From Jannaschia sp. M317 (GTDB lineage: Bacteria; Pseudomonadota; Alphaproteobacteria; Rhodobacterales; Rhodobacteraceae): DNA of 64,000 nt. Positions 36,732 through 63,251 of the stretch are shown here, one piece after another (the first letter of the stretch is position 1; every line of letters starts with the position of its first letter). Position numbers and translations under genes: made by a program. Below the pieces are notes generated by a model that saw only the letters and a list, made by a program, of their open reading frames with translations, was not told the DNA's origin and did not search any database. The DNA is taken from contig NZ_CP081155.1 of NCBI RefSeq assembly GCF_025141175.1, positions 406,001 through 470,000 of the forward strand, read 5' to 3'.

Positions 36732-37346
36732 TCAGACGCCGTAGCGCGCCAGAAAGGTGTCGACCGCGCCGTCGATGACGCGCTGCTTTTCGGCATCGGT
36801 CACGGATTTACGAATGTTGAACATCAATTCCGGGAACAGACGCGCCTTGCAAAGCTCTGCGAATTGGTCAGCCGCCAGGTCCAGATCGTCGATCTTCAAC
36901 TGACCTTCGGCCACGGCACATTTGAGATACGCGACCATGCGTTCGCGGAACAGTTTCGGCCCGGTCTCGTAGAATTCGCGCCCCAGTTCGGGGAACCGTT
37001 CGGATTCGGCGACGCACATGCGAAAGATCGACTGACCAAAGCCGGACAGGAAAAACGACAGCATCCGATCCGCCGCCACGCACAGCACCTCTCTGGGCTG
37101 GGCGCTTTCGGTCAGGATGGCGTCCGCTTCGTCGATCTGCAGACTGCACTCGGCCTTCGCCACCTCCATGAACAGCAGGCGCTTGTCCGAGAAATAGCTG
37201 TAAAGCGTCGCCTTGGACACGCCCGCCGCACGGGCGATGGCATCGACGCTTGCGCCTTCGTAGCCGTCGGCCATGAACACGCGCCGCGCGCCATCCAGGA
37301 CCTGGTCGAACTTGCGACCCTTCTTGATCGGTGTGGCGTCGTTCAT
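36732..37346 (-). CDS. TetR family transcriptional regulator
   Basis: 204 residues. The ATG at 37346 has AAGGGG six bases upstream, giving MNDATPIKKGRKFDQVLDGARRVFMADGYEGASVDAIARAAGVSK-type start; the helix-turn-helix is at about 30-55 (SVDAIARAAGVSKATLYSYFSDK). The rest is an alpha-helical ligand and dimer domain ending LARYGV. It lies next to a secreted small protein and a membrane-bound ferritin, and the gaps carry three related inverted repeats of the kind TetR dimers bind. The natural reading is an autoregulated repressor of the adjacent genes (inference). The inducing ligand is unknown. Confidence 0.88.
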   Translation of the reverse strand: MNDATPIKKGRKFDQVLDGARRVFMADGYEGASVDAIARAAGVSKATLYSYFSDKRLLFMEVAKAECSLQIDEADAILTESAQPREVLCVAADRMLSFFLSGFGQSIFRMCVAESERFPELGREFYETGPKLFRERMVAYLKCAVAEGQLKIDDLDLAADQFAELCKARLFPELMFNIRKSVTDAEKQRVIDGAVDTFLARYGV

Positions 37347-37403
37347 GGAAACCCCTTGCGTCGCTGAAATATAGAGCGCACCGCCCACCGCACAAGCATC
37401 AAC

Positions 37404-37419
37404 TGAACCGATCCGTCCA
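37404..37419. promoter_or_regulatory. Degenerate TetR-type operator upstream of tetR
   Basis: TGAACCGATCCGTCCA matches the perfect palindrome at 37865-37888 at 14 of 16 core positions. It lies 58 bp upstream of the TetR start, where it could mediate autoregulation. Confidence 0.5.
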
Positions 37420-37425
37420 AATGGT

Positions 37426-37452
37426 GAAGGCGGGCCAGACCGGCCCGCCTTC
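37426..37452 (-). terminator. Hairpin after the small secreted-protein gene
   Basis: GAAGGCGGGCC at 37426-37436 pairs perfectly with GGCCCGCCTTC at 37442-37452 around a 5-base loop. It lies 26 bp past the stop of the leftward small-protein gene and would separate its transcript from tetR. No clear U-tract follows. Confidence 0.5.
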
Positions 37453-37478
37453 CGTTGTCCCGTCGGGAGGGAACGGGA

Positions 37479-37781
37479 TCAGTCGTTGTCGGCGGCCAGG
37501 GTGGCCAGCTCGTTCAGGTTCAGAACGCCACAGGCGTCTGCGCGCAGACCGACAGACGATTCCAGTGCGGTGCATTCGCCGGAATTGCCGACCGGGGCGC
37601 GGTCGGAGCGGATGCTGGTCATGTCCACGCGGGTCCAGCCGTCGTCGTCGATGTCGACGGTCGTCATGGCCACCGGCGGCGACGGGATACGGGCCCAGCC
37701 ATCGTCGTTGATGGTGATCTGATCGGCAAGAACCGGCAGAGCGGCGACAGACAGGACAAGGGCGGCGATTGCGGTCTTCAT
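37479..37781 (-). CDS. Small secreted protein with duplicated DDGW motif
   Basis: 100 residues. A Sec signal peptide (KTAIAALVLSVAALPVLA) is cleaved near residue 19. The mature part holds two copies of a short acidic motif spaced exactly 20 residues apart: ITINDDGWARI (22-32) and VDIDDDGWTRV (42-52). Two Cys at 70 and 84 could form a disulfide. The pI is low and no known family is recognised. It has a good ribosome site (GGAGACACC) and sits between tetR and the divergent membrane-bound ferritin with palindromes on both flanks. A periplasmic metal-binding or stress role is conceivable but unproved. Confidence 0.75.
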   Translation of the reverse strand: MKTAIAALVLSVAALPVLADQITINDDGWARIPSPPVAMTTVDIDDDGWTRVDMTSIRSDRAPVGNSGECTALESSVGLRADACGVLNLNELATLAADND

Positions 37782-37802
37782 GAGGTGTCTCCAGAATGAT
37801 TT

Positions 37803-37823
37803 TGAACCGAACCGTTCAGTTCA
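37803..37823. promoter_or_regulatory. Imperfect TetR-type operator in divergent promoter
   Basis: A 21-bp near-palindrome, with TGAAC at 37803 and GTTCA ending at 37823 and symmetric CGAAC/CGTTC-like inner parts, lies 22 bp upstream of the small secreted-protein start. A weak leftward promoter candidate (TTGTCC, 17 bp, TATCTC) lies between this and the second repeat. Confidence 0.55.
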
Positions 37824-37864
37824 TAAATTTGAGATAGGAGCACGAACCCTGGGGGACAAGAGAT

Positions 37865-37888
37865 AAAATGAACCGATCGGTTCATTTT
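37865..37888. promoter_or_regulatory. Perfect 24-bp palindrome, candidate TetR operator
   Basis: The core TGAACCGATCGGTTCA (37869-37884) is flanked by AAAA and TTTT, making a perfect 24-bp inverted repeat. It sits 43 bp upstream of the mbfA start and 83 bp from the small secreted-protein start. Size, symmetry and position fit a TetR dimer site controlling the divergent genes. Confidence 0.65.
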
Positions 37889-37930
37889 TACACGGCTTGT
37901 CTTCGCCACCCGCACAGGTATCGTCGCGTC

Positions 37931-38905
37931 ATGCTGAGCAGCTTCACTTTCCGCCGACGATTCCGGGACCTTTCCGAGCAGGAGGTGCTGGCCCTCGCCA
38001 TTTCGTCCGAAGAAGACGACGCCCGCATCTACCGATCCTATGCCGAACACCTGCGCGCCGATTTCCCCGACAGCGCGACCGTCTTCGACGGCATGGCCGC
38101 CGAGGAAGACACCCACCGCCGCCGCCTCATCGACCTGCACGAAGCGCGCTTTGGCCATGTCATCCCGCTGATCCGGCGCGAACACGTGGCCGGATTCTAT
38201 GCGCGCAAGCCGGTCTGGCTGGTCGAGAACCTGTCGCTGGATCGCATCCGCGGCGAAGCCGCCGCGATGGAGCACGACGCGCACGCCTTCTATCTGCGGG
38301 CCGCCCAGGCCTCGTCCGACCCGGCGACGCGCAAATTGCTGGGGGATCTGGCCGCCGCCGAAGCCGGGCACGAGGCCCGCGCCGGCGAGTTGGGGGACGC
38401 CGTGTCAGACGATGCGCGCGCGGCAGAAGACGACCAGGCCCACCGCCAGTTCGTCCTGACCTGGGTTCAGCCGGGGCTGGCCGGGTTGATGGACGGCTCG
38501 GTTTCCACCCTGGCACCGATCTTTGCGGTGGCCTTCGCCACGCAGGACACCTGGACGACATTTCTGGTCGGCCTCGCAGCCAGCGTCGGGGCAGGCATTT
38601 CCATGGGCTTTACCGAGGCGGCGTCAGACGACGGACAATTGTCGGGGCGTGGTTCACCGCTGAAACGGGGCTTTGCCTCGGGCATCATGACGACCGTGGG
38701 CGGATTGGGGCACGCCCTGCCTTACCTGATCCCGAATTTCACCCTGGCCACCAGCATCGCCATCGCCGTCGTCTTCGTAGAACTCTGGGCGATTGCCTGG
38801 ATTCAGAACCGCTGGATGGAAACGCCGTTCTGGCGGGCCACGTTGCAGGTGGTCGTCGGCGGCGCCCTGGTGTTGGCGGCGGGCGTCTTGATCGGGTCCG
38901 GTTAG
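37931..38905 (+). CDS. mbfA: Membrane-bound ferritin/iron exporter MbfA
   Basis: 324 residues. The N-terminal ferritin-like (rubrerythrin) domain has ISSEEDDARIYR (Glu27/28), an ExxH at 59-62, Glu109, and a second ExxH at 144-147, a di-iron four-helix pattern. The C-terminal half (about 170-324) is a VIT1/CCC1-like membrane domain with LAGLMDGSVSTLAPIF and several helices. The fusion is the signature of MbfA, which exports iron and protects against H2O2 in rhizobia, where Irr represses it. Here a TetR gene and palindromes are adjacent instead. I chose the ATG at 37931; an upstream ATG at 37868 lies inside the palindrome. Confidence 0.9.
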   Translation: MLSSFTFRRRFRDLSEQEVLALAISSEEDDARIYRSYAEHLRADFPDSATVFDGMAAEEDTHRRRLIDLHEARFGHVIPLIRREHVAGFYARKPVWLVENLSLDRIRGEAAAMEHDAHAFYLRAAQASSDPATRKLLGDLAAAEAGHEARAGELGDAVSDDARAAEDDQAHRQFVLTWVQPGLAGLMDGSVSTLAPIFAVAFATQDTWTTFLVGLAASVGAGISMGFTEAASDDGQLSGRGSPLKRGFASGIMTTVGGLGHALPYLIPNFTLATSIAIAVVFVELWAIAWIQNRWMETPFWRATLQVVVGGALVLAAGVLIGSG

Positions 38906-38949: not shown

Positions 38950-39885
38950 ATGCTCGCGATCTTTTTGAAAACGATACCCTTCTTTGCCCTGATCGGGTTG
39001 GGCTATCTTGCGGGCCGGACCAGGTTCTTTACCGCCGAGGCCACGGCCTATCTGACGAAATTCGTCTTTTACTTCGCGCTGTCCGCGATGCTGTTCAACT
39101 TTGCCGCCAACCTGACCCTGGCCGAGATCTTCGATACAAGGTTCATCATCGCCTACCTCTGGGGGTGCGGCGTGGTCTATCTGATCGCGACTGCGGTGGG
39201 CTTTCTGCGCGGGCTGCCCATCACGGAATCGGCGGTCGAGGCGCAATGTGCCGTCATCGGGAACGTCGGCTTTCTCGGCATTCCGATGTTCGTCCTGCTG
39301 TTGGGTCCAGAAAGCGCGGGGCCCATGCTGATGGTCCTGTCGACCGACTTGATCGTCTTTTCCTCGCTGATCGTGATCCTGATTACCGGGTCGCGCGACG
39401 GGCGCATCGCGCTGTCGACCCTGCGCACGGTCGGGCTGGGACTGGTCAAGAACCCGATGATCGTCTCGATGATTGCCGGCCTGGCCTGGTCGGCCACCGG
39501 GCGACAGCTGTGGGTGCCCGTCAACGAATTCCTGACCCTGCTGGGGGCCGCCGCGACGCCCGGCGCGCTGTTCGCCATCGGGGCCTCGCTTGCGGGCAAG
39601 ACGGCCGAGCGGATCTCGGTCGCGGGCTGGCTGACCTTTTGCAAGCTAGTGCTGCACCCGGCCGCCGTCGCGCTGGCCGCGCTGGTGATCTTTCCGGTGG
39701 GTGACCCGTTCGCGGCCACGGTCATGATCTCTGCCGCAGCCCTGCCGGTGGCGGGCAACGTCTATATGCTGGCGCAACACTACGGCGTGGCCCCGCAACG
39801 GGTCAGCGCCGCAATTCTTGTGTCGACTGCGGTGTCCATTGTCACCGTGTCGGTCATCATCGGTCTGCTCACAGGAGGCATCTGA
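38950..39885 (+). CDS. AEC family transporter (auxin efflux carrier type)
   Basis: 311 residues with about ten hydrophobic helices. The opening MLAIFLKTIPFFALIGLGYLAGRTRFF and the mid-sequence QCAVIGNVGFLGIPMFVLLLG (about 95-118) and the repeated end segment AALPVAGNVYMLAQHYGVAPQRVSAAILVSTAVSIVTV match the AEC fold, with the broken-helix Asn-Gly pattern in each half. Bacterial members move organic acids or amino-acid derivatives; no substrate can be assigned. It ends one base before fghA, with an AGGAGG ribosome site inside its last codons, and both belong to the rightward operon running to 42.2 kb. Confidence 0.88.
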   Translation: MLAIFLKTIPFFALIGLGYLAGRTRFFTAEATAYLTKFVFYFALSAMLFNFAANLTLAEIFDTRFIIAYLWGCGVVYLIATAVGFLRGLPITESAVEAQCAVIGNVGFLGIPMFVLLLGPESAGPMLMVLSTDLIVFSSLIVILITGSRDGRIALSTLRTVGLGLVKNPMIVSMIAGLAWSATGRQLWVPVNEFLTLLGAAATPGALFAIGASLAGKTAERISVAGWLTFCKLVLHPAAVALAALVIFPVGDPFAATVMISAAALPVAGNVYMLAQHYGVAPQRVSAAILVSTAVSIVTVSVIIGLLTGGI

Positions 39886-40692
39886 ATGAAAACCCTCTCT
39901 GAAAACCGCTGCTTTGGCGGCACCCAGGGTGTCTATGCCCATGCCTCGGACGGGACCGGGACCGAAATGACCTTTGGCCTGTTTCTGCCGCCCGCGCCGA
40001 CGGGCGCCGTGCTGTGGTATCTGTCGGGCCTGACCTGCACCCATGAGAACGCGATGACCAAGGCCGGATTGCAGGCCTGGGCCGCCGACACGGGGATCGC
40101 CATCGTCTTTCCCGACACCTCGCCGCGCGGCGAAGGTGTTCCCGACGAGGAGGCTTATGACATGGGCCAGGGCGCGGGGTTCTACGTGGATGCGACCGAA
40201 GGCGTCTGGGCCCGGCATTTCCAGATGGAACGCTACATCACGCGCGACCTGCCGGAGGTCGTCTTTTCCGCCTTCGACCTGGACGCGGACCGGCAGGGCA
40301 TCACCGGCCATTCCATGGGCGGTCACGGGGCGCTGACACTGGCGCTGAAACATCCGGGCACCTACCGATCCGTCTCGGCCTTCGCGCCGATCTGCAACCC
40401 GTCCGCCAGCGATTGGGGCACGCCCCAGCTGACCGCCTATACCGGTGGGGCCGAGGCGCATGACGCCACGCGCCTGCTGTCGGTGGGCGGCAAACTGCCA
40501 CCCTGCCTGATCGACACAGGCACTTCGGATCAGTTCTACGACAAATTGGGGACGGAGGCCTTTGTGGCCGCCCTGGCCCAAACCCGCACAGAGGCCTCGG
40601 TCAACCTGCGCAAGGGATACGACCACAGCTATTTCTTCGTCAGCACATTTGCCCCCGATCACGTCGCCTTCCACGCAGAGCATCTGGCATGA
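39886..40692 (+). CDS. fghA: S-formylglutathione hydrolase
   Basis: 268 residues of esterase D family. SENRCFGGTQGVYAHAS (5-21), PAPTGAVLWYLSGLTCTHEN (about 43-62), and GHSMGGHGAL, with the nucleophile Ser near 145, are diagnostic. An Asp in LIDTGTSDQFYD near 220 and His in KGYDHSYFF near 252 complete the triad. It hydrolyses S-formylglutathione to formate and glutathione, the second step of glutathione-dependent formaldehyde oxidation. The first enzyme, AdhC/FrmA, is not in the window. The stop overlaps the HAD gene start. Confidence 0.95.
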   Translation: MKTLSENRCFGGTQGVYAHASDGTGTEMTFGLFLPPAPTGAVLWYLSGLTCTHENAMTKAGLQAWAADTGIAIVFPDTSPRGEGVPDEEAYDMGQGAGFYVDATEGVWARHFQMERYITRDLPEVVFSAFDLDADRQGITGHSMGGHGALTLALKHPGTYRSVSAFAPICNPSASDWGTPQLTAYTGGAEAHDATRLLSVGGKLPPCLIDTGTSDQFYDKLGTEAFVAALAQTRTEASVNLRKGYDHSYFFVSTFAPDHVAFHAEHLA

Positions 40693-41312
40693 GCGTGCCG
40701 AAGGCCGTCATCTTCGACATCGGCAACGTCCTGATCGAATGGCAACCGGAACGGTATTACGACCGCATCATCGGCGAGGCCCGCCGCCGCGAGATGTTCG
40801 CGGCCGTCGACCTGCACGGCATGAACGACCGGGTCGACCGCGGCGAAGGCTTCCGCGAGGTGATCTACGAGGTGGCCGAGGCGACGCCCGCCTTTGCCGA
40901 TGAAATCCGCATGTGGCATGACAACTGGCTGGATCTGGCCACCCCTGCCATCGACCGGTCCGTCAGGATGATGCGGGCGCTGCGGACACGGGGCGTGCCG
41001 GTTCATGCCCTGACGAACTTTGGCGTCGGCACCTTCGATCTGGCGCTGACCCGCTATGATTTCCTGTCGGAATTCGATCAGGCGTTCGTTTCCGGCCACA
41101 TGAAGGTCATCAAGCCCGAGGCCCGCATCTATGAAATGCTGGAGGACGCAACCGGCCTGAGCGGTGGGGACCTGCTGTTTACCGACGACCGCGCCGACAA
41201 CATTGCCGCCGCCCAGGCGCGGGGCTGGCGGACGCATCTGTTCGAAGGACCTGACGGCTGGGCCAGGCGGCTGGTGGCCGAGGGACTGCTGTCTGAGGCA
41301 GAGGCGGCATGA
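40689..41312 (+). CDS. HAD family hydrolase, YihX-like
   Basis: 207 residues. The first HAD motif reads VIFDIGNVLIEW with Asp10, and the second Asp of the usual DxD is replaced by Gly, exactly as in the YihX branch, whose E. coli member acts on glucose 1-phosphate. Motif II and III regions, ALTNFGVG near 107 and KPEARIYEML near 140, and the last GDLLFTDDRADNI near 160 are intact. Substrate specificity here is unknown. It overlaps both fghA and the ornithine cyclodeaminase-like gene by 4 bp. Confidence 0.85.
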   Translation: MSVPKAVIFDIGNVLIEWQPERYYDRIIGEARRREMFAAVDLHGMNDRVDRGEGFREVIYEVAEATPAFADEIRMWHDNWLDLATPAIDRSVRMMRALRTRGVPVHALTNFGVGTFDLALTRYDFLSEFDQAFVSGHMKVIKPEARIYEMLEDATGLSGGDLLFTDDRADNIAAAQARGWRTHLFEGPDGWARRLVAEGLLSEAEAA

Positions 41313-42211
41313 GCGCCCGTATCATAGGACCGGACGCAGAAAGCGCGCTGGACTGGCTGGCCCTGACCCGCGCGTTGGCGGCGGGGCACCGGCTGCCACG
41401 GGCCGAGGTGCGGGACAGTTTTCTCTATCGCGGCGACGACACGATCCTGTCCCGTGCAGCCTGGATCGACGGGCTGGGCGCATTGGTCAAGACGGCGACG
41501 ATCTTTCCGGGCAACCCGGCGGCGGGCAAACCGACCGTCGGCGGGGCCGTGTCTGTTTTCGACGATACCGACGGGTCGCTGGCGGCGATGCTGGATTTCG
41601 CCCTTGTGACCAAATGGAAGACCGCGGGCGACAGCCTGTTGGCAGCCACGCGGCTGGCGCGCCCCGACAGCCGCCGCATCCTGATCGTAGGCGCGGGAAC
41701 GGTCGCCGCATCCCTGCACGAGGCCTATGCCGCGGCCTTCCCCCAGGCCCGCTTTGCGGTCTGGTCACGGACCCCCGCGACCGCACGCGCCTTTGCCGAG
41801 GCGCGGGGCATCGAGCACGCCCCCGACCTTGCCACCGCCGTGCCCGAGGCCGACATCGTCACCTGCGCCACAATGTCGACGACCCCCCTGTTGCGTGGTG
41901 ACTGGCTGCGCCCCGGCCAACATATCGACCTGATCGGGGCCTATCGACCCGACATGCGCGAGGCGGATGACGCGGTTCTGCGGCGCGCCACGATCCACGT
42001 GGACAGCCGGGACACCACGCTCGACCACATCGGAGAGTTGAAGATACCGCTGGCCGCCGGGGTCATCGCGCGAGACGCCGTCCGCGCTGACTATTACGAC
42101 GCGAACGGCATGCAGCGCACCTCGCAGGAAGAGATCACGTTGTTCAAGAACGGTGGCGGGGCGCACCTGGACCTGATGACCGCCCGCTATATCATTGATA
42201 CGGCAGGCTGA
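41309..42211 (+). CDS. Ornithine cyclodeaminase/mu-crystallin family protein
   Basis: 300 residues. The N-terminal half has PRAEVRDSFLYRGDDT and TIFPGNPAAGKPTVGGAVSVFDDTDGSLAAMLDFALVTKWKTAGDS (about 61-112), and the Rossmann part ILIVGAGTVAASLHEAY (about 128-144). This is the ornithine cyclodeaminase/mu-crystallin family, which makes proline from ornithine or reduces ketimines. The family's Lys in the substrate loop (LVTKWKTAGDS) is present. Product not certain. It is the last gene of the AEC-fghA-HAD operon; its stop is separated by 3 bp from the convergent inositol ABC ATPase stop. Confidence 0.82.
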   Translation: MSARIIGPDAESALDWLALTRALAAGHRLPRAEVRDSFLYRGDDTILSRAAWIDGLGALVKTATIFPGNPAAGKPTVGGAVSVFDDTDGSLAAMLDFALVTKWKTAGDSLLAATRLARPDSRRILIVGAGTVAASLHEAYAAAFPQARFAVWSRTPATARAFAEARGIEHAPDLATAVPEADIVTCATMSTTPLLRGDWLRPGQHIDLIGAYRPDMREADDAVLRRATIHVDSRDTTLDHIGELKIPLAAGVIARDAVRADYYDANGMQRTSQEEITLFKNGGGAHLDLMTARYIIDTAG

Positions 42212-63061: not shown

Positions 63062-63251
63062 TTCAGCAGACCCTTACAACTGTTCAACTTGGGGTCCTTG
63101 ATGACGGCGGAATGGGGCGAGACCATGCCCCGCTCTGGTCAATCTCGGGATCGTTTAAAGATTGGGCGGATTTGGGAAACGCGGAAACGATCGGTTCAAC
63201 GGTTTGATTTCAAACATGAAACCATGATCCTGTACGCCTGAAAATGGCGAC

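Follow-up and report, generated by a model that had tools for sequence, protein, structure and literature searches.

A TetR-family regulator encoded beside mbfA in Jannaschia sp. M317: candidate operators point to an unlinked RND efflux operon

FrrA, MexL and NalC are efflux repressors, and they are among the kin of a TetR-family regulator encoded in the DNA studied here, a 64,000-nucleotide stretch of the genome of Jannaschia sp. M317 (hereafter the window). Its gene, tetR, and a gene for a small secreted protein lie on the minus strand, divergent from plus-strand mbfA, which encodes a membrane-bound ferritin and iron exporter. A review gives Irr as the regulator of MbfA (PMC7762939). In passages of a report on Rhodobacter sphaeroides (PMC3413700), the mbfA promoter is a binding target of Irr, loss of irr increases mbfA about 8-fold when iron is limiting, H2O2 increases mbfA about 9-fold, the transcription start is mapped in the Irr box, and the authors assign Irr no major role in iron-dependent mbfA expression. 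Iron limitation was also profiled by RNA-seq, according to part of another report (PMC4176601). Judged by the TetR protein, the closest named relatives of the window's genome are Jannaschia species (Rhodobacteraceae).

We consider it most probable that the regulator is an efflux-type repressor that binds TRAACYGNNCRGTTYA and works both in trans and at its own locus, and that mbfA is its divergent neighbour. A Rhodobacteraceae TetR_C_7 protein, kin of FrrA, MexL, NalC and AefR, would bind TRAACYGNNCRGTTYA palindromes and thereby repress its own gene, the adjacent small secreted-protein gene (via two paired operators) and, acting in trans, an unlinked operon that encodes a resistance-nodulation-division (RND) adaptor and an AcrB-type permease. 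The mbfA gene would share a control region with the small gene as a divergent neighbour, with an Irr-box-like element of its own in most relatives. Sequence comparison yields the motif, its link with this TetR and its positions in the genomes; from them we infer binding, the sign of control, an inducer and any effect on mbfA. The genes and candidate operators of the window are the following.

36732..37346, minus strand: tetR, 204 amino acids, TetR_N plus TetR_C_7 (AefR-like) domains (PF00440, 4.3e-16; PF14246, 2.9e-38)
37404..37419, no strand assigned: candidate operator 1 (tetR-proximal), TGAACCGATCCGTCCA, 2 mismatches to TGAACCGATCGGTTCA, 18.7 bits, -58 to -73 of the tetR start
37479..37781, minus strand: small secreted open reading frame, 100 amino acids, two DDGW repeats and a C-terminal Cys pair
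37803..37818, no strand assigned: candidate operator 2 (small-gene proximal), TGAACCGAACCGTTCA, 2 mismatches, 23.6 bits
37865..37888, no strand assigned: candidate operator 3, a perfect palindrome of 24 bp scoring 28.9 bits; its core (37869-37884) occupies -47 to -62 of mbfA
37931..38905, plus strand: mbfA, membrane-bound ferritin / iron exporter, 324 amino acids, Rubrerythrin plus VIT1 domains (NF045676, 553 bits)

A sequence-only reading of this DNA had reported three related inverted repeats in the gaps between tetR, the small secreted gene and mbfA, and all three were found at the positions it gave. The 21 bp that it assigned to the second repeat are accounted for by an overlapping register of operator 2 (37808-37823). 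The operator 2 core lies at -22 to -37 of the small gene, and 66 bp separate operator 2 from operator 3. Over the whole window, five matches with at most 3 mismatches were detected, namely the three palindromes, the overlapping register and one at 63183, compared with a mean of 0.35 and a maximum of 2 in 100 shuffles of the window. A chance origin of the palindromes is ruled out by these shuffles and by those of the tetR-locus gaps.

Of 212 tetR relatives, the best 80 from named genomes were retained (59–84% identity), and a 20-bp motif, reading ACTRAACYGATCRGTTYAGT, was trained on the gaps of their tetR loci, so that counts on these 80 gaps depend on the training. Loci outside the training gaps, partly from the same species, make up the mbfA, tetR-only and adaptor sets used below. 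The best palindrome match in the gap had at most 2 of 14 mismatches in 55 of the 80 loci, and no such match was seen in 20 shuffles per gap. Sites of at least 10 bits were present in 75 of the 80 tetR gaps, on which the motif was trained, versus 5 of 1600 shuffled gaps; the repeats, whose possible absence at orthologous loci the earlier reading had raised, are thus recurrent there. A tetR-proximal site occurred in 46 of the 80 loci; an operator upstream of its own gene, present here as operator 1, is hence not universal. Among tetR loci without mbfA beside them, 15 of 19 had a site (8 bits or more) at -36 to -54 of tetR.

The link between site and regulator was also apparent at the level of whole genomes. 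A survey of 61 genomes from 61 genera found this TetR in 46 and mbfA in 39; among 114 genomes of the class, two, both Rhodobacteraceae, had it at E<=1e-40. Exact TRAACYRNNYRGTTYA matches numbered 105 in the 46 TetR-bearing genomes (28 for the reversed-pattern control) and 7 in the 15 TetR-less genomes (11 for the control). The proposal that the palindromes behave as operators of the neighbouring TetR is strongly supported by these comparisons. The sequence-only reading had proposed a motif search across related genomes to see whether the site tracks with tetR and mbfA together: it does track with tetR, and the number of operators does not depend on mbfA.

The best-supported target of the regulator would be an unlinked RND efflux operon. 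Among 29 site loci that were read, five away from the tetR locus (L184, L190, L194, L210 and L212) have the site before an RND-adaptor-like gene. Three of these genes (L184, L190, L210) pass the NCBIfam RND_mfp cut-off; the other two, in L194 and L212, are truncated where the locus ends and score below that cut-off. In L184 and L210, a TPR-like gene lies divergently and a lipoprotein-like gene is also present, the TPR_21 match being slightly below cut-off in L184. The adaptor was picked after sites had appeared before it in these 5 of 29 loci, and the count over 55 genera was made later. With one adaptor as query, an adaptor was found in 55 of the 61 genomes. The motif (at least 10 bits) was present upstream of the adaptor in 39 of 41 TetR-bearing genera versus none of 14 TetR-less genera (P=3e-11); for adaptor loci with a TPR neighbour, the proportions were 39 of 40 and 0 of 9. 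The 55 adaptor loci together held 41 sites of at least 15 bits in 243 kb. A second adaptor-like gene of G042 (L254), with a 24.8-bit site, is below the hit threshold and outside the 55-genus count.

In the window's own genome, TRAACYRNNYRGTTYA is matched exactly at two places, operator 3 and a site upstream of the adaptor-permease operon:

C1:2006247-2006262: adaptor-upstream site of the window's genome, 24.8 bits, its 20-mer starting 70 bp before the adaptor

There the adaptor gene overlaps a gene for an AcrB-family permease (PF00873, 1.8e-139), and TPR_21 and BamB-like genes are divergent from the adaptor-permease operon. The permease, which was looked at in this genome only, scored 406 bits with drug-type RND models versus 226 with the CusA/CzcA metal model, all below the strict cut-offs. 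Inspection by eye showed no TetR gene beside the operon.

That the palindromes belong to another regulator, or are structural elements such as a hairpin terminator with an accidental link to TetR, is highly improbable. Operator 3 does score, on the minus strand, as a terminator-like hairpin with a T run, but none of the 14 TetR-less genera examined has the site before the adaptor, none of the 7 TetR-less genomes with mbfA has it before that gene, and the distance of the site from tetR is narrow where mbfA is not adjacent (the 15 of 19 loci given above).

The small secreted gene is a recurrent feature of these loci and, by its operator pair, a supported candidate target of TetR. It was found upstream of tetR, on the same strand, in 45 of the 80 loci. 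The majority type is about 55 amino acids long and has a signal sequence followed by DLPRLTFPxP, often with two cysteines; the minority DDGW type, about 100 amino acids long, was found mainly in Jannaschia. The nonsynonymous substitution rate (dN) was below the synonymous rate (dS) in every pair compared, 9 of the short type and 4 of the DDGW type (0.35 versus 1.03 for the window protein and that of L009), and the small genes are therefore coding. At least two operators were present in 44 of the 45 loci with the small gene versus 4 of the 35 without it (P=1e-16), L054, whose small gene was missed by the start-codon rule, being counted among the latter. By site counts in the 80 loci, then, the small gene and tetR itself, both among the targets that had been suggested for the palindromes, hold up as recurrent ones. 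The operator pair may bracket the promoter of the small gene. A sigma-70 scan of 37330-37960 gave no promoter, and of five sequences put through a looser scan between the two operators, two (window and L018) showed a TTG-type hexamer pair.

Both types of small protein stand apart from described families. The window protein had no Pfam or NCBIfam match at 0.01, the best match of 10 DDGW members to families was 0.0062, to one unrelated family only, and the 55-residue type gave single-member matches only, at 0.012–0.076. One DDGW relative is labelled 'YARHG domain-containing' in UniRef, a label that Pfam did not confirm. A homologue search with the window protein alone found only itself; an alignment of the DDGW type found 8 proteins including the window protein, with the 7993 closest candidates scored. 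The short type had 75 relatives among 5.8 billion proteins; their legible names are 'hypothetical' or 'uncharacterized', and one of the 75 (P0067) carries a Pfam domain. In the 61 genomes, a short-family match was found in 14, all TetR-bearing; at E<=1.2e-4, a cut chosen afterwards, the proportions were 12 of 46 TetR-bearing versus 0 of 15 TetR-less (P=0.03). Two weaker hits sit elsewhere in their genomes. This search scored at most 106 candidates per genome and missed the locus small genes of G019 and G044. A weak relative of the 55-residue family also exists in the window's own genome (C1:999762-999896, L182; E 1.9e-4), with no motif site of 6 bits or more nearby.

The mbfA gene of the window is clearly assigned: its product scores 553 bits with NF045676 against a cut-off of 450 and has the ferritin-like (rubrerythrin) domain fused to a VIT domain. 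Its start was set at 37931 because, counted from this position, residue 8 is where the NF045676 match starts, and because an upstream ATG, at 37868, falls within the palindrome. The divergent neighbour of tetR was mbfA in 54 of the 80 loci, an AEC transporter gene in 15, fghA in 2 and none of these in 9. At the genus level, a site was present upstream of mbfA in 22 of 27 genera with tetR near, in 2 of the 5 that have tetR at another place and in none of the 7 that lack it; at 12 bits the first and last proportions were 21 of 27 and 0 of 7 (P=0.0003). The 27 genera include G029, in which the two genes are 1.5 kb apart. In two genera (G015 and G041), mbfA and the small gene lie on contigs other than that of tetR and have three sites each, which is evidence in trans. 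The three unlinked mbfA genes without a small gene (G007, G011, G026) had no site.

Operator number tracks the small gene, not mbfA. Where the small gene was present, at least two operators were found in 32 of 32 loci with mbfA beside and 12 of 13 without (P=0.29); where it was absent, in 4 of 22 and 0 of 13, respectively (P=0.27). Over the 61 genomes, both tetR and mbfA were present in 32, mbfA only in 7, tetR only in 14 and neither in 8, a co-occurrence that is not significant (P=0.13). The sequence-only reading had suggested that the regulator controls an iron exporter together with a periplasmic partner; as the main function of the regulator, control of the exporter is not supported by these two results. 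A TetR that is a dedicated repressor of MbfA and this partner, sensing an iron-related ligand or an oxidant, is thus quite improbable; as a candidate it was rejected on the operator-number and co-occurrence counts. What speaks for it is that tetR and mbfA are divergent neighbours in the 54 loci and near each other in 27 of the 32 genera with both, a pairing that also holds where fghA flanks the other side of tetR, that operator 3 stands at -47 of the window mbfA, that three cysteines are conserved in TetR, and that in R. sphaeroides mbfA responds to H2O2 while Irr is given no major iron-dependent role in the passages cited (PMC3413700). Set against these points, no site was seen at mbfA genes with neither tetR nor the small gene beside them (3 of 3 unlinked, 7 of 7 TetR-less), the best-supported target in trans would be an efflux pump, and the same passages have Irr binding the mbfA promoter, with the increase in the irr mutant (PMC3413700).

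The statement that mbfA is controlled by Irr and not by a TetR protein proved too simple, since most relatives carry an Irr-box-like palindrome directly before mbfA as well as TetR sites. The consensus of the Irr box, TTTAGAAnnnTTCTAAA, was seen in most of the relatives, where the palindrome lies 24–46 bp before mbfA. With at most 3 of 14 mismatches it was found in 21 of the 27 genera that have tetR near mbfA, in 3 of the 5 that have it elsewhere and in 4 of the 7 that lack it; among named loci matching mbfA, 42 of 55 had it, versus 5 of 1950 shuffles. In the mbfA promoter of the window (37889-37930) such a box is not recognisable: within the final 75 bp the closest fit has 6 of 14 mismatches, and one with 4 of 14 stands at -141. 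The genome does have irr (NF045678, 196 bits). Ten of the 55 named loci have at least 6 mismatches, namely L008, L012, L014 and L027 of Jannaschia and L063, L075, L076, L081, L083 and L084, so that the lack of an Irr box is not confined to Jannaschia; L027 has only a C-terminal mbfA fragment, and its upstream region is uninformative here. The mbfA position stated in an excerpt of PMC11236759 makes one surveyed genome (G046) a fit for R. sphaeroides 2.4.1, and this genome has two operators, a 42-residue small gene and an Irr box.

Because the Irr-like element is unrecognisable in the window and operator 3 lies at -47 of mbfA, this gene may be co-controlled by TetR in the window's genome. A wider scheme, in which TetR controls the pump, the small gene and, via operator 3, mbfA, so that drug or envelope stress would turn on iron export with efflux, is a tentative possibility. 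It would fit the divergent region of about 150 bp common to the small gene and mbfA, the joint displacement of these two genes with three operators in G015 and G041, and the missing Irr box in a genome that has irr. Operators are, however, equally frequent where mbfA is missing, and the sites of relatives are mostly 60–150 bp upstream of the mbfA start, a long way for steric repression should the transcript begin within the Irr box, as in the R. sphaeroides passages (PMC3413700). It is also conceivable, if unlikely, that the small secreted proteins, under the same repressor as the RND pump, serve it as envelope partners or sentinels, and that their divergent promoter draws MbfA into an efflux and envelope-stress regulon in which drug efflux and iron export are switched together.

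We return to the efflux-type repressor with mbfA as its neighbour, on which several observations weigh negatively. Two of the 41 TetR-bearing genera had no site in the tested adaptor upstream region; one (G019) has an 18.2-bit site elsewhere in the adaptor locus and the other (G026) none. There was no adaptor match at E<=1e-40 in five TetR-bearing genomes (G009, G011, G029, G041 and G046). On the adaptor tree, TetR presence required 6 changes (6–8 in bootstrap trees), with many branches weak and the supported ones forcing only 2, and the independent-pairs test had 2 pairs, too few for significance. The tetR-proximal site was found in 19 of 45 loci with the small gene versus 27 of 35 without it. 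Five of the 27 genera with tetR beside mbfA showed no site between them. Of the Jannaschia loci with tetR beside mbfA and no small gene, three (L014/L166, L164 and L165) had no site of 12 bits or more, and a fourth (L168) had one. Finally, the inducer, which would release TetR and also be a substrate of the pump, is probably a hydrophobic or electrophilic compound, and this is a guess.

Other observations were made at the loci examined. Allowing up to 2 mismatches, the window's genome has 166 places (134 for the control), and 30 loci were taken among those listed. Further motif sites in this genome are one of 21.8 bits between convergent genes (L005) and three of 18.3 (L276), 17.3 (L290) and 16.3 bits (L278). 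Near the RND operon, genes for a ZnuA-type metal-binding protein and an ABC ATPase (L246:519-2245) lie 145 bp downstream of the permease gene on the same strand. The adaptor itself (L246:6139-7743) has a long repetitive coiled-coil-like stretch, and adaptor open frames differ strongly among genera, reaching 1014 codons. On the 3' side of mbfA (window 38950-42211) are closely spaced genes for an AEC transporter, an S-formylglutathione hydrolase, a HAD-like protein and an ornithine-cyclodeaminase-like protein, the last two named by eye; the AEC gene adjoins tetR in many relatives without mbfA. In two Jannaschia loci (L027:4624-5118 and L169), only the C-terminal part of MbfA (residues 160–324) matches, adjoining tetR, and the product is possibly an MbfA without the ferritin domain. 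In four Marivita loci (L050, L056, L072, L080), the open reading frame before tetR encodes a membrane protein resembling, by eye, an ammonium transporter, and not mbfA.

From a guess about one locus, these results arrive at a regulon that can be tested, seen across 39 Rhodobacteraceae genera and proposed to consist of one TetR, one operator and an unlinked RND pump, and they bring to light undescribed families of very small secreted proteins. They are also a warning that the function of a regulator should not be read from the adjacent gene, the conspicuous iron exporter being here the least supported target. In R. sphaeroides, the operators beside mbfA are relevant given the H2O2 response and Irr being only part of the control in the passages cited (PMC3413700). 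Titles and abstract openings retrieved for mbfA with TetR and Irr, for TetR with RND efflux in Rhodobacteraceae and for the operator strings contained no description of this regulon.

The protein itself points to efflux control. Its predicted fold is helical (mean predicted local distance difference score, pLDDT, 86), with an N-terminal TetR_N helix-turn-helix and an all-helical C-terminal domain. By profile, the nearest solved relatives are FrrA (6g87, 1.6e-38), MexL (8wrf, 9.6e-36) and NalC (8ke8, 7.1e-26); by fold, they are MexL (1.1e-11), FrrA (1.3e-10) and NalC (2.5e-08), with an unnamed Mesorhizobium regulator (3bhq) in second place. Three cysteines are conserved among 81 sequences, at positions 67 (81 of 81), 111 (78 of 81) and 166 (81 of 81), and could confer sensitivity to electrophiles or oxidants; redox or metal sensing through them is conceivable.

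Compared with known systems, the regulator is akin to FrrA, MexL and NalC in sequence, in fold and in that it is predicted to control its own gene along with an RND pump, and Cys 67 is common to it, FrrA and MexL. It differs in that Cys 111 and Cys 166 were not found in their aligned sequences, its predicted pump is not encoded beside it, and a small secreted-protein gene would be a further target. AefR of Pseudomonas syringae (3cdl) has the TetR_C_7 domain in common with it (profile match 9.5e-16) but is farther from it than FrrA, MexL and NalC. The Irr-controlled MbfA of Bradyrhizobium, Agrobacterium and R. sphaeroides is of the same family (NF045676), and most relatives of the locus have the Irr-box-like palindrome, whereas the window's genome has TetR sites in the same region and, despite its irr gene, no recognisable Irr box.

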